DNA of 64,000 nt from Roseicyclus mahoneyensis (GTDB lineage: Bacteria > Pseudomonadota > Alphaproteobacteria > Rhodobacterales > Rhodobacteraceae), in contig NZ_QGGW01000003.1 in assembly GCF_003148775.1 (NCBI RefSeq), forward strand, positions 186,001-250,000. The letters run 5' to 3'. Below are positions 4,967-13,794 of this stretch, piece after piece. Positions within the stretch are counted from its first letter, which is position 1. Every line of letters starts with the position of its first letter. Both the position numbers and the translations under genes were made by a program. The notes beneath the pieces were generated by a model. The model saw only the letters and a program-made list of their open reading frames with translations. It ran no database searches and was not told the origin of the DNA.

Positions 4967-5927
4967 CTATGTTGGAAAACTGCGTGCCGGCCTTGCCATC
5001 GGGCTTGGACCAGTCGCGCTTGACCCCGATCATCAGCACCACGTTCTTGGCGACATAGATCGAGGAATAGGTGCCCACGATCACGCCCCAGAAGATGGCG
5101 AAGACAAAGCCGCGGATGACGTCGCCGCCAAGGATCAGCAGGGCTGCAAGAGCAACCAGTGTCGTGCCCGACGTCATCAGGGTGCGCGACAGCGTCTCGT
5201 TCGCGCTGAGGTTCATGACCTCTTGCAGCGGCCGCGTCTTGTATTTGATCAGGTTCTCGCGCAGCCGGTCGAAGATCACCACGGTGTCGTTGATCGAATA
5301 GCCCACGATGGTCAGCAGCGCCGCGATGGTGGCCAGATCGAAGCGGATCTGAAGCAGCGAAAACACCCCGATCGTCAGCACGATGTCATGGACCAGCGCC
5401 ACCACGGCGCCGACGGAGAACTGCCATTCGAAGCGCAGCCAGATGTAAACGAGGATCGCGCCGAGCGAGGCGAGCACGGCGATGATGGCCGTGGTGATCA
5501 ACTCGCCCGAGACCTTGGGGCCCACGGATTCCACGCTGGGAAAGCTCATCGCAGGATAGACCGTGCGCAGCGCGTCCTGCACTGCGGTGATGGTTTCAGG
5601 GGTGACGCTTTCCTGCCCCTCCTGCGCCTGGATGCGGATCATGGCGACGTTCTCGTCGGGGCCGAAGGTTGGGTCGAAGACTTCGGTGATCGACACATCG
5701 CCCAGCGCCAGCGCATCCAGCGCGGCGCGGTAGGCCGCCACATCCACGGGCTGCGAGGATTCCGTCCGGATCGTGGTTCCGCCAAGGAAGTCGATGCCAA
5801 AATTCAGCCCCATGCTGAACCAGATTCCCAGCGACAGCACCATCGCCACCATGGACGCGCCGAAGGTCAGGCGCGCATATTTGAAGAAGTCGATGTTGGT
5901 TTCTTGGGGGACAAGGCGCAGGCGCAT
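4959..5927 (-). CDS. secF: Protein translocase subunit SecF
   Basis: 322-aa SecF, partner of SecD, using the proton-motive force to pull proteins through SecYEG on the periplasmic side. Signature SecF features: first TM segment followed by GLNFGIDFLGGTTI, a periplasmic domain of about 100 residues, then five TM segments including the GYSINDTVVIFDRLREN motif. It starts 3 bases after the secD stop, in the usual secD-secF order. Confidence 0.95.
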   Translation of the reverse strand: MRLRLVPQETNIDFFKYARLTFGASMVAMVLSLGIWFSMGLNFGIDFLGGTTIRTESSQPVDVAAYRAALDALALGDVSITEVFDPTFGPDENVAMIRIQAQEGQESVTPETITAVQDALRTVYPAMSFPSVESVGPKVSGELITTAIIAVLASLGAILVYIWLRFEWQFSVGAVVALVHDIVLTIGVFSLLQIRFDLATIAALLTIVGYSINDTVVIFDRLRENLIKYKTRPLQEVMNLSANETLSRTLMTSGTTLVALAALLILGGDVIRGFVFAIFWGVIVGTYSSIYVAKNVVLMIGVKRDWSKPDGKAGTQFSNIDA

Positions 5928-9014: not shown

Positions 9015-9195
9015 CGGTCTGTCTTTCCCTCATTGGTCCATGGTGTGATTGCACTCCATGGCGCGCAATCGCCAAAAAAGGATGGCGCGAGGTGCTGAAA
9101 AAGCAAGATGATGGCACCCGGACGGCGCAAGGGCCGGGCAGGTTTTTGCGCAAGGCGTGCAACCTTGGGCGCGGGCTGCTGAAAAAGAGGGCAAG

Positions 9196-9516
9196 ATGAA
9201 GGTTTACGGACTTAAAACCTGCGACACCTGTCGCGCTGCGGTCAAGGCACTGACGGGACAGGGTGCGGTTCTGATCGATATCCGCGAGACACCGCTGGAC
9301 GTCGCAACGCGGGCGCGGTTTCTGGCGGAATTCGGCGATGCGCTGGTCAATCGCCGCTCGACCACATGGAAGGGTCTGTCTGATGCTGAGCGCGCGGACG
9401 CGCCCGAACCCCTTCTGGCCGCGCATCCCGCGTTGATGAAACGGCCCGTGATCGACGCGGACGGCGCGCTTTACCTCGGCTGGGACGCGGGCGTGAGGGC
9501 CGCGCTGGGCGTCTGA
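9196..9516 (+). CDS. ArsC/Spx-family thioredoxin-fold protein
   Basis: 106-aa member of the ArsC/Spx/YffB superfamily. The N-terminus MKVYGLKTCDTCRAAVKAL has a CxxC pair (Cys10, Cys13) at the start of a thioredoxin fold, and the C-terminal half has the family motif HPALMKRPVI. The classic ArsC Arg triad is not fully evident, so arsenate reductase activity is uncertain; YffB-like glutathione-dependent thiol reductase is as likely. The ATG at 9196 follows GAGGG. Its last 46 bases overlap the convergent bufD gene. Confidence 0.8.
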   Translation: MKVYGLKTCDTCRAAVKALTGQGAVLIDIRETPLDVATRARFLAEFGDALVNRRSTTWKGLSDAERADAPEPLLAAHPALMKRPVIDADGALYLGWDAGVRAALGV

Positions 9517-10046
9517 CGCCGGGCCAGAGCCGCATCGACCGATAGCGGCCCCGCGCCCTTGAGCACCAGATAGACCAGCGGGAACAGCCACAGCAGGCGT
9601 GTGTCGATCAGGCCATTGGCGTGGCGGTCAAACAGGCTGCCAAGGGCCGCGCCATGGCCCATCACGTCGACCCATGTCTGCACCAGCACGAAGCCCGACA
9701 TTCCCAGCGCGGCCAGACGGGTGAACAGGCCGATCAGCAACAGGATCGGCAACAGGAATTCCGTCCAGGTGCCGAAGAACACGATCAACTTCGGGAACAG
9801 GCCCAAGGCCGAGGGGTCGTAGCCCACCGCGTCGAACACGCGCGGCAAGATCTGGACATAGGCGCCGGTCGAGAGCGTGAAGAGGCCCGACAACCCGTCG
9901 CCCAGCTTGGTCAGGCCGGAATTCCAGTAATAGAGGAACAGGACCGCCACGAAGATGAACCGCGCCAGCGTCGGCAGCAGGGTAGGCGCGACATGGGTCT
10001 CGAGCGCATCGAAAATCCGGGCGTGAAGCGCGATGAGGGACTGCAT
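9471..10046 (-). CDS. bufD: DoxX family membrane protein BufD
   Basis: 191-aa DoxX-type inner-membrane protein with four hydrophobic segments: about residues 22-40, 85-105, 112-130 and 148-165. Conserved patches are YYWNSGLTKLGDGLSGLFTLS and FFGTWTEFLLPILLLIGLFTRLAALG. DoxX proteins are the fourth gene of bufferin operons, where they are thought to supply electrons or act in the membrane step of maturation; the exact role is not settled. It begins 11 bases after the bufC stop, so it closes the operon. Its 3' end overlaps the ArsC-like gene on the other strand by 46 bases. Confidence 0.85.
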   Translation of the reverse strand: MQSLIALHARIFDALETHVAPTLLPTLARFIFVAVLFLYYWNSGLTKLGDGLSGLFTLSTGAYVQILPRVFDAVGYDPSALGLFPKLIVFFGTWTEFLLPILLLIGLFTRLAALGMSGFVLVQTWVDVMGHGAALGSLFDRHANGLIDTRLLWLFPLVYLVLKGAGPLSVDAALARRQTPSAALTPASQPR

Positions 10047-10057
10047 GGGAAATCCTT

Positions 10058-10804
10058 TCAGGAGTGGCGGTCGGGCTCGCCCGTCAAGGCGCCGGAGGTG
10101 AAGAACAAGGTCACAAGCGCCGCGATATCGGCTTTGGGATGATCGGCGAGCGTGCGCGTCATCGCGTCCGACAGGGTCAGACGGCCCTTGAGAGCGCGGG
10201 CAAAGGTCAGGCCACCCGGCGGCAAAAGGTAGGGCATAGGGTCAAACCCTTTGCGCGCGAGCAGCACATCTTGTGCGCCCGGCGCGGGTTTCGGCGCACC
10301 CTCGGTCGTGTTGTAGCGCCATATGCCGTGGACCGGGTGGCGCGAGGACAGGACCAGCGTGGCAGGCGCCAGCCGCGGGCTAAGCGCCATGACGGCGGCG
10401 GGGTCGATCCCCGTGGTGTCGAAAGGCGCGGCATCGGCGGCATGGTAGGATTGCCGCAACCCCAGATCGAGACGCGCCACATCGGGCAGGTAGCGCAGAT
10501 GCGCGACCGGGGCAAAGCGCGCCAGAAAGCCAGGGAAGCTCGTGCCGTAAAGCGCCAGCCGCGGATCCGCGGGCGGGTTGGCGCGCAGGTAGACGCCCGC
10601 CATCGCCTTGAAGAAGTCATCCCCCACCAGCTTGGCGATTGTGGGAAAGCCGGTTTCCAGCGCCTGCGTCAGCGAGACGGCGACATTGTTGCGGTACACG
10701 TCGAAGCGCTTGCCCGCAGACCCGCCGAACGGGTTCCTCAGCGCCTTGGGTGCGGGCTGGGCGGGGTCAAGCAGAGCTGCGCCGAACTGGCCTTGACCGC
10801 TCAT
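10058..10804 (-). CDS. bufC: DUF2063 protein, bufferin maturation partner BufC
   Basis: 248-aa protein with the N-terminal DUF2063 domain, recognisable by [23 protein letters not shown] and [12 protein letters not shown]. In DUF692/DUF2063 gene pairs this protein is the substrate-recognition partner of the MNIO enzyme. The start at 10804 overlaps the bufB stop (ATGA), so expression is coupled one to one with the enzyme. A longer frame upstream lies inside bufB and is rejected. Cytoplasmic, no signal peptide. Confidence 0.85.
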
Positions 10805-11661
10805 CGCGTCACCTCGGCAGCCTGCAAGATGGCCGTGGCCCGCGCGGCCTCGTCCAGCAACTCGGGCAGGGGCGGCACGTCGGTGTCCCATTCGATCAGC
10901 GTGGGCCGTGGGCCGCCGCGGGCGATGGTGTGAGCGTAAAGCGTCCAGACCGGGTCCACGACCGGTCGGCCATGGCTGTCGATCAGAAGCGGGCGGTCCT
11001 GGTCGTCGGTATCCTCGTCATGGCCGCCCAGATGGATCTCGCCCACGGCATCGAGCGGGAAGGCGTCGATATAGGCGCGCGCGTCCCAGCCCTGATTGGT
11101 GGCCGACACGAAGACGTTGTTCACATCGAGCAACAGCCCGCAGCCGGTGCGCCGCGCCAGTTCGGCGAGGAATTCGACCTCCGCCATCTCGCTGTCGGCA
11201 AAGGCCAGATAGGTTGAGGGGTTTTCCAGCAGCATGCGCCGCCCAAGCGTAGTCTGCACCTCGTCGATATGCACGGCGACGCGGGTCAGGGTCGCGGCGG
11301 TATAGGGCAGGGGCAGAAGATCGTTCAGGAACCCGGTGTCATGGGTCGACCAAGCCAGATGTTCCGAAAAGCTGGCGGGCTGCAGCCAGCCGCACAGGTG
11401 CCGCAGCCGCGCAAGATGGTCGCGGTCAAGCGCACGCTCGCCCCCGATCGACAGGCCGACGCCATGAACCGAGATCGGAAAGCGTTCGGCCAGCGCGCGC
11501 AGTTGCGCCAAGGGGCGGCCGCCATTGCCCATGTAGTTCTCGGCATGAACCTCCAGCCATGCAACGGGGCCCGGGGCCTCGATCAGACCGGCGAAATGTC
11601 GCGATTTGAAGCCGATGCCGGCAGCAAGCGGAAGGGCACGGGGGGCGGTTGTGTCAAGCAT
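10801..11661 (-). CDS. bufB: DUF692 multinuclear iron oxygenase BufB
   Basis: 286-aa MNIO (DUF692) enzyme of the MbnB/BufB type. The family uses two or three iron ions and oxygen to modify cysteines of a precursor peptide. In bufferins the products are thiooxazole-type heterocycles that bind copper. The TIM-barrel pattern of ligands is visible: HAENY (39-43), ISVHG (His66), SEHLAW (Glu100, His101), LENPS (Glu146, Asn147), LDVNNV (Asp179), EIHLGGH (His210, His214), DSHG (His230) and IEWD (Glu257). Which residues hold iron is inferred from family knowledge. No good ribosome site precedes the ATG at 11661; a hairpin between bufA and bufB may set its level. Confidence 0.9.
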
Positions 11662-11690
11662 GTCGGGGGTCCGGCTGGTCAGACAGGGGT

Positions 11691-11719
11691 GCGGTTCCGG
11701 GTGGGGATCCCGGAACCGC
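11691..11719 (-). terminator. Intercistronic hairpin between bufA and bufB
   Basis: Perfect 11-bp stem: GCGGTTCCGGG (11691-11701), 7-base loop, CCCGGAACCGC (11709-11719), about 20 bases after the bufA stop. No T-run follows on the minus strand, so it is more likely a partial attenuator or an mRNA 3'-end stabiliser. Such a device would let the precursor be made in excess over its enzymes. Confidence 0.5.
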
Positions 11720-11738
11720 GGGGATGCGTCGGTCAGGC

Positions 11739-12086
11739 TCAGACCGGACGCAGGACCGAGGTGTCGGTCCCTTCGGGCAGGTCGCGCGCGAGACCTTCGA
11801 AGCCTTCGGCCTCGAGCGCCTCGAGGGTCATGCCCATGCGGCCATCGGGCAGTTCGATGTCGCCGCAGGTGCCGACGGGGACGAGCGTCCAGGCATTGCC
11901 CTGATAGTCAACGGTCGAGGTGCCGGCGCAGGTCGTGCCGGGGCCGGCGGCGCAGTCGTTTTCGCCCGCAAGGCTGACGCCAAAGCACTTTTCATTGGCC
12001 TGCGCCTGCGCTTCGGTCACGCCATGGGCGGAGACGGCGGCGGCAACAGCACCCAGCAGGGCGAGGGATTTCGTGGCGGTGGTCAT
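11739..12086 (-). CDS. bufA: Bufferin precursor BufA (DUF2282), C-terminally extended
   Basis: 115-aa bufferin-type RiPP metallophore precursor. Residues 1 to about 29 form a Sec-type signal peptide ([13 protein letters not shown], then AQA before NEK). The mature part holds the four family cysteines: EKCFGV (Cys34), ENDC (Cys45), TTCAGTS (Cys53) and PVGTCG (Cys74). In studied bufferins the central cysteines are modified by BufB-BufC and the exported product sequesters copper. DUF2282 proteins as I know them end soon after the last Cys. Here an extra acidic tail of about 40 residues follows. The start at 12086 has GGAGC upstream; the longer frame to 12191 has no leader character. First gene of the operon. 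Confidence 0.88.
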
Positions 12087-12125: not shown

Positions 12126-12192
12126 GATTACGCGCCGCCCTTTGAGTGGCGGACAAACGAAAGTTGCGCAGGACAGCCGATCAAACGCCAAT

Positions 12193-12240
12193 CACAGCCG
12201 CGTGGCCCACGATTGCGTTACGGGCCGTGACGCGGCTGTG
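12193..12240. other. Orphan long hairpin
   Basis: Outer 10-bp arms CACAGCCGCG (12193-12202) and CGCGGCTGTG (12231-12240) enclose a second stem GGCCC (12204-12208) with GGGCC (12222-12226). There is no gene end nearby on either strand. Could belong to the bufA leader, to an unannotated small RNA, or be a terminator. Confidence 0.4.
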
Positions 12241-12445: not shown

Positions 12446-12814
12446 ATGCGCAACGCTGCCCTCGTGCTGGGCCTGATCGGTGGGTTGATTGCCATGGTCG
12501 TGGGCTTTTTCGTTTATGGCTATGTCGTCTTCGTCGACTGGTTCGGCGAGGTTCCCGACCTCGCCCGGCAACTGCCCGATCCCCAGATGAAAAAGACGGT
12601 CTCGCTGATCGCACCCATCCTTGGGATCGCCGGGGCCGCGATGGCGCGGTCGCGGGCGCTATGGGGCGGGCTTTTGATGCTGGCCGCGGCGGGCGGCATT
12701 TATCACGGCTTGGGTTTTGGCGTCTTCACGATGTTTCCCATCGCTTGCCTCGGGCTTGGCGGTTTCCTCGCGCTGGCCGCGGGCAGGCCGGACGAGGAAA
12801 AGGCGCATTTCTGA
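12446..12814 (+). CDS. Hypothetical membrane protein, 122 aa
   Basis: Small inner-membrane protein with four hydrophobic segments: about residues 4-32, 50-66, 72-90 and 92-112, with a short loop DWFGEVPDLARQLPDPQ after the first. No family recognised. AAAGGAAA at 12435-12442 precedes the ATG. Charged C-terminus GRPDEEKAHF. It is divergent from the bufferin operon but shares its control region, so co-regulation by metal is possible though unproven. Followed at 44 bases by overlapping palindromes that lead into the B12-binding gene. Confidence 0.7.
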   Translation: MRNAALVLGLIGGLIAMVVGFFVYGYVVFVDWFGEVPDLARQLPDPQMKKTVSLIAPILGIAGAAMARSRALWGGLLMLAAAGGIYHGLGFGVFTMFPIACLGLGGFLALAAGRPDEEKAHF

Positions 12815-12880: not shown

Positions 12881-12990
12881 CTTGACTCGCGCCCGATCCT
12901 GTTGCGCCATGGTGGCAGGGATGTCCGCTGCCCGTGCTGACGCGCGGTTATCCCGCTGCTGTTGCATGTCGGCTGACGGGAGACGGCACG

Positions 12991-13794
12991 GTGAGACAGA
13001 GCAAAGACGACGAGGCGCGTGCGCAGGCGGGGCGCGACACCGCAGACAGCGCGACCGATGCGGGGTCGGAGGCGGGCGGCGTCAATCCCGGATCGGTCGA
13101 ATGGCTGGCCCGTGCGGCGATAGCCCGACTGGCGCGCGAAGCGGCGGAGCGTGCCGGGGCTTCGGCCCCGCCTCTGCCCGACAGCGTGGTTGCCAGCTTT
13201 TGCGATCATCTTGTCGCGGGCGACTACGCAGCGGCCGAGGCGGTGGTGCGACGCCTGACCACCCACAGCCAGGATTATGCCAAGATCGCGGATGGCTTGC
13301 TGTCTCGTGCCGCGCGTCGGCTGGGCGAGGGCTGGGAGGCCGACAAACTGTCCTTCGCCGATGTCTCGGTCGCCATCGCACAGATCTTCCGCCTCAACCA
13401 GGCGTTCCGGCAACGCAATGTGCCCTTCGTCCGTGGGCCGGAACGGTTGGGCATTTTCGCCACCATCCCGGGCCAGCCCCATAACCTCGGGCTTGTGCTG
13501 GCGGCCGAGGCCTTTCGCGGCGAAGGCTGGCAGATCGACCTGCGCCTCGACACGCCCGCACGTGACATCATCGACATCGTCCGCCGCCAGCGCCCCGGGC
13601 TGATCGGTCTGACCATCAGCCGCGAGGACAGGCGGCACCAGATGGCCCACCTGATCCTGAGCCTGCGCGCCCTGCCGTTGCCGATCCGGATCATGCTGGG
13701 CGGGCGCGGGGCGCTTGGCCTCGCGCGCATCCTGCCGCGCGGGCATGTCGACCGTGTCGTGACCGATATCACCTCGGCGCTGCGCGAAGCCTGA
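12991..13794 (+). CDS. Cobalamin-binding-domain protein, regulator-like
   Basis: 267-aa two-domain protein. A helical bundle (about residues 64-145) with LGEGWEADKLSFADVSVA resembles the cap of MerR/CarH-type and AerR-type B12 proteins, keeping the Trp (115). A Rossmann-like B12 domain follows (about 150-267) with PGQPHNLGLVLAA, in which His164 would be the lower axial cobalt ligand of the xxHxxG motif. The first acidic residue of that motif is replaced by Gln. The N-terminal 60 residues are charged and low in complexity, with no DNA-binding domain. So it could act as an anti-repressor-like partner or as a corrinoid carrier. I choose GTG 12991, with GGGAG 8 bases upstream, over ATG/CTG-like starts inside the operator zone. 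Confidence 0.75.
   Translation: MRQSKDDEARAQAGRDTADSATDAGSEAGGVNPGSVEWLARAAIARLAREAAERAGASAPPLPDSVVASFCDHLVAGDYAAAEAVVRRLTTHSQDYAKIADGLLSRAARRLGEGWEADKLSFADVSVAIAQIFRLNQAFRQRNVPFVRGPERLGIFATIPGQPHNLGLVLAAEAFRGEGWQIDLRLDTPARDIIDIVRRQRPGLIGLTISREDRRHQMAHLILSLRALPLPIRIMLGGRGALGLARILPRGHVDRVVTDITSALREA

Follow-up and report, generated by a model that had tools for sequence, protein, structure and literature searches.

A Buf1 bufferin operon with a long-tailed precursor and a conserved upstream palindrome in Roseicyclus mahoneyensis

Bufferins, copper-binding RiPPs described only recently, form a very abundant class, and for the Caulobacter bufferin both the chemistry and the copper function are established. 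In a 64,000-nucleotide stretch of the Roseicyclus mahoneyensis genome (hereafter named the window), a complete bufferin operon had been predicted, with a precursor continuing far past its last core cysteine and no ECF sigma/anti-sigma pair at its side. This locus raises two questions that can now be tested: why do some lineages lengthen the tail of their bufferin, and what controls the operon in the many Rhodobacterales that have no SigF/NrsF at the locus? The reading which we hold to be likely, taken as a whole, is that of a Buf1 operon in which the long tail forms a folded and optional elaboration, control is exerted through a palindrome rather than by SigF/NrsF, and a hairpin keeps bufA expression above that of bufBCD.

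The operon and its neighbourhood

The identification as a bufferin operon proved right, all four genes scoring above curated family cut-offs, and the gene order bufA-bufB-bufC-bufD was borne out on the minus strand, between 9471 and 12086:

11739..12086, minus strand: bufA, DUF2282 bufferin precursor, 115 aa (PF10048, 83 bits, cut-off 22.4; translation)
10801..11661, minus strand: bufB, MNIO bufferin maturase, 286 aa (NF050167, above cut-off)
10058..10804, minus strand: bufC, DUF2063 partner protein (PF09836, 79.8 bits, cut-off 27.2)
9471..10046, minus strand: bufD, DoxX membrane protein (PF07681, 36.8 bits, cut-off 23.6)

The tight coupling of the last three genes is also found, with the start of bufC overlapping the stop of bufB (ATGA) and a gap of 11 nt between bufC and bufD. 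The gap between bufA and bufB is 77 nt, with a hairpin inside. BufB, the product of the sole MNIO gene of the genome, scores 354 bits against PF05114 and 382.8 bits against NCBIfam NF050167, “MNIO family bufferin maturase” (equivalog cut-off 310). Upon alignment with solved MNIO proteins, it matches the chains of 3bww, TglH and MbnB. The motifs HG, SEH/SDH, EN, LDVNN, IHxxGHD, DxHG and ExD are common to BufB and 3bww, and are found in BufB at positions 64-67, 99-104, 144-149, 178-182, 208-215, 228-231 and 256-259; it is in these motifs that we take the metal ligands of BufB to sit. Both the PME type 1 (DUF2063) partner and DoxX are encoded in the operon, above Pfam cut-offs.

The precursor itself can be divided into three parts:

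12003..12086, minus strand: BufA signal peptide, probably of the Sec type, about residues 1-28 (hydrophobic, boundary placed by eye)
11865..11993, minus strand: conserved core of BufA, residues 32-74, with four Cys (alignments of 22 and 68 bufferins)
11742..11864, minus strand: tail of BufA, 41 residues (75-115), made of the shared RDLP tail, an insert (90-98) and an extension (105-115)

Judged by eye, the N-terminus is hydrophobic, with AQA near the end of the stretch that precedes the core. The DUF2282 match spans residues 31-79, and the four predicted core cysteines are indeed present (C34, C45, C53 and C74) and invariant in 68 aligned bufferins. By analogy with the Caulobacter bufferin, BufA would be made with a Sec signal, its two central cysteines would be oxidised by BufB and BufC into copper-binding thiooxazoles, and the modified protein would be exported, where it would buffer periplasmic copper.

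Among known systems, the closest in layout are the Caulobacter operons CC3254-CC3257 and CC2907-CC2905, which share with the window a DUF2282 precursor, an MNIO protein and a DUF2063 partner in the same order (PMC3511200, PMC12452194); CC3254-3257 also has DoxX in common with it. Captophorins with EGKCG repeats (fontiphorin, oxazolin) rely on an MNIO protein and a PME1 partner as well, and yield thiooxazole products, but their precursors are repeat-type, and not DUF2282 as in the window (PMC13097082). On all the sequence criteria tested, the operon belongs to the Buf1 (DUF2282) bufferins.

Most Rhodobacteraceae loci have the same buf gene order, mostly flanked by thrS and arsC/csp. Since this neighbourhood (thrS on the upstream side, arsC-like and cold-shock genes on the other) is so widely shared, we regard the operon as an inherited chromosomal locus, and not as a recent import. 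As far as its sequence goes, it is ordinary for Buf1 bufferins; a tail of a minority type and the conserved control site set it apart.

Some details of the surroundings may be recorded. bufD (minus strand) and the arsC/Spx-like gene at 9193-9516 (plus strand) are convergent, and their 3' ends overlap by 46 bp (9471-9516). On the other side, 12446-12814 (plus strand) encodes a small hydrophobic protein of 122 aa with a sub-threshold DUF4064 match only. It recurs beside the buf operon: its homologue cluster is present in 36 of 80 loci. There it lies mostly at the bufD end, in convergent orientation, but in this genus it is divergent from bufA. A gene for a protein with a B12-binding domain (12934-13794, plus strand) also adjoins the operon in the window.

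The C-terminal tail of BufA

BufA runs 41 residues beyond C74. The unusual length noticed in the original prediction is real, but the tail is not unique, and some half of it corresponds to the tail that Rhodobacteraceae bufferins normally have. Short-tailed Buf1 of this family (e.g. at loci L013 and L097) resemble the window in core, RDLP motif, operon and neighbourhood, and differ in their tail, which has 22-29 residues after the last core cysteine, ends with GSLEALDRDLPA or a close variant, and lacks both the insert 90-98 and the extension 105-115. The window tail is this usual design with 9 residues inserted before RDLP and about ten residues added after it. The proviso that homologues might show the tail to be normal for the family therefore holds by half, for the short RDLP tail; the form with 40-54 residues belongs to a minority, some 5% of genera.

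This last estimate comes from a sample of 394 Rhodobacteraceae genomes, almost all one per genus, 279 of which have DUF2282. A profile of the long tail matched 15 of these 279 bufferin-bearing genomes at E < 1e-18, which makes the long tail a minority subfamily rather than a singleton. One further match was found at 4e-8, and the remaining 21, with E-values from 1e-5 to 1e-3, are consistent with the short motif that both tail forms share. Within the genus, 7 of 12 bufferin-bearing genomes have the long form. All 15 strong matches fall at bufA genes, giving no sign that the tail is a mobile domain of other proteins. The published lengths of Buf1 precursors vary from 30 to 835 residues, and fusions to cytochrome c, MerC and others are known among them (PMC12452194). 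In these fusions DUF2282 is joined to extra sequence, as it is here; the extra parts are recognisable domains, whereas the window tail matches no Pfam family.

Other tails and arrangements were seen in passing. In the genome G029, the bufA found at 5115 on the minus strand of locus L195 has a different tail of 61 residues (GSLKPLARDLPSIDAHEKAFPGKGKAYEEQIKGYKPVEGFEPFAKG), unrelated to the long tail of the window. Long tails with Met- and acid-rich ends occur at loci L124, L128, L133 and L049 (e.g. MVEMMDDDMMEES, PVDMMMDS). Tandem bufA copies at a single locus were found three times (L009, L062 and L076).

That the tail arose by a frameshift, as envisaged at the outset, or by read-through was ruled out by homologous in-frame tails in 26 distinct sequences; tails differ by whole codons and keep RDLP, which speaks against any frameshift. 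In these same sequences L, G, G and RDLP are invariant. Among eight long-tailed genes, dN reaches at most 0.026 in the core and up to 0.31 in the tail, and the dN/dS of the tail is about 0.13-0.8 where both changed. By these substitution rates the tail is constrained, far less than the core, and because of the dN/dS range we call the constraint weak.

The AlphaFold2 model of BufA, built with 68 relatives, has a mean pLDDT of 75 and a pTM of 0.63. Residues 1-25 are disordered in it, and the blocks from residue 81 to 115 have pLDDT values of 87-92. In the tail, the model predicts one helix (88-93) and two strands (98-100, 112-114). With only 22 relatives, the tail was again the best-predicted part of the protein. 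No relative of the model with its tail was found in the PDB by Foldseek at an E-value of 0.001 or better. These predictions suggest that the long tail is a folded elaboration of mature BufA, in which a short helix would be added before the shared RDLP segment and a strand after it.

How tails change was examined on a BufB+BufC tree of 87 rows. Tail type changes at least nine times on it, seven of these changes being forced by well-supported branches, in a quick tree with SH-aLRT support only, which would not tell transfer of bufA alone from transfer of the whole operon. One clade is dominated by the long form, which turns up again in several others. Such a scattered distribution, together with variable length, other tail types elsewhere, and a dN/dS of up to about 0.8 in some pairs, might be expected of nearly neutral C-terminal drift in a small secreted protein. 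We find this unlikely, given the eleven invariant columns across 17 tails, the same insert in distant lineages and the high predicted order.

The tail had also been proposed to be a follower peptide, i.e. a recognition element needed by BufB/BufC for the modification, and perhaps cleaved later. Its position directly after the core, its restriction to BufA and the strong conservation of the RDLP motif in short and long forms fit this proposal, which is nevertheless weakened by the maturases. Within the genus, BufB is 83-85% identical to that of the window in short-tailed members and 81-85% in long-tailed ones, so that equally similar enzymes serve either tail. Moreover, according to preliminary results in the literature (PMC12452194), the precursor is recognised at least in part by its signal peptide, and the operon is without a protease gene. 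An obligatory follower is for the first two of these reasons rather improbable; the short RDLP part may itself be a recognition element.

Still less probable, in our view, is a second metal site in the long tail, based on the Met- and acid-rich end that it has in many species, as would be expected of a periplasmic Cu(I) site. Over the 26 distinct long tails, Met makes up 9.3% of the residues after RDLP, versus 1.85% in BufB/C/D, and 22% are acidic; the binomial p-value ignores shared ancestry. In some species such a composition would suit Cu(I) binding. The extension of the window, however, has no Met, Cys or His, and for want of Met we do not claim Cu(I) binding for it. We favour the model in which the long tail would be a folded elaboration at the C-terminus of the mature bufferin, and an optional one.

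The upstream palindrome and the intergenic hairpin

An adjacent SigF/NrsF pair is common in Buf1 clusters, but does not define bufferins. None lies beside the window operon, as had been noted, and no GTAAC-N16-18-CGAA motif was found upstream of its bufA; adjacent genes and promoter motif are thus both absent from this locus. Both bufferin operons of Caulobacter are under SigF, which acts from GTAACC-N16-CGAA (PMC3511200). Where those operons are under SigF/NrsF control, the window locus has a palindrome upstream instead:

12188..12220, minus strand: palindromic site TAACGCAATCGTGGGCCACGCGGCTGTGATTGG, candidate operator, conserved, 134 nt upstream of the bufA start
12161..12166, minus strand: CAACTT, 21 nt past the palindrome, where TAnnnT (-10-like) is conserved (from the base counts at 72 distinct sites)
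11691..11719, minus strand: intergenic hairpin between bufA and bufB, 11-bp stem GCGGTTCCGGG/CCCGGAACCGC

The consensus of the palindrome is 29 bp long (TCACG-N4-CGTG-N3-CACG-N4-CGTGANTGG), and is followed 21 nt on by TAnnnT. When up to 6 mismatches in 22 positions are allowed, a threshold set after seeing the data, it precedes bufA in 75 of 113 loci, a few of them from the same genome twice. In shuffled upstream regions the best site had 7 mismatches. The loci of Pannonibacter, Labrenzia, Thalassospira and Acuticoccus showed no such site. In the present genome, the bufA site is the only one with 3 mismatches or fewer, its own reverse complement aside, and over 41 genomes all matches with 2 mismatches or fewer precede bufA, except three. 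The latter, scattered and with 2 mismatches each, were considered as further operator targets and taken as chance.

SigF/NrsF is present in none of the 75 palindrome loci, versus 6 of the 38 others (Fisher p 0.001, relatedness uncorrected). Four of these 6 loci have a SigF-type promoter, and 32 of the 113 have neither palindrome nor SigF/NrsF. The view that control differs here from the SigF arrangement is supported, with a conserved palindrome standing where the SigF promoter would be. No DNA-binding gene recurs in the conserved neighbourhood of the operon (80 loci); ArsR-like and LysR-like genes, recognised by eye, are each found in 10 of the 80 loci, several kb off. Elsewhere in the genome, an unlinked ECF sigma/NrsF pair is located at about 288,500-289,700 of another contig (G000:C4; L188:1847-3171).

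That this pair, the only SigF/NrsF of the genome, controls the operon in trans is very improbable: NrsF is absent from all 12 other genomes of the genus, 11 of which nevertheless carry both operon and palindrome, and the GTAAC-type motif is missing before this bufA. From its conservation, we infer that the palindrome is most likely the site at which a DNA-binding regulator would control transcription, replacing SigF/NrsF; the promoter downstream of it would be one whose -35 box is poor. No earlier description of the palindrome turned up in a literature search of small extent, and the site offers a concrete bait for finding the regulator of the bufferin operon. It is tempting, if doubtful as a general rule, to extend this to Rhodobacterales bufferins at large, which would then combine a dedicated regulator acting at an essentially single-target palindrome with exchanged C-terminal modules tuning metal binding or periplasmic placement.

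Finally, the hairpin between bufA and bufB has counterparts elsewhere. Of 91 relatives, 67 have a stem of at least 10 bp after the stop of bufA, versus 3% of mononucleotide shuffles, and its sequence varies among relatives. The hairpin probably keeps bufA output above that of bufBCD.
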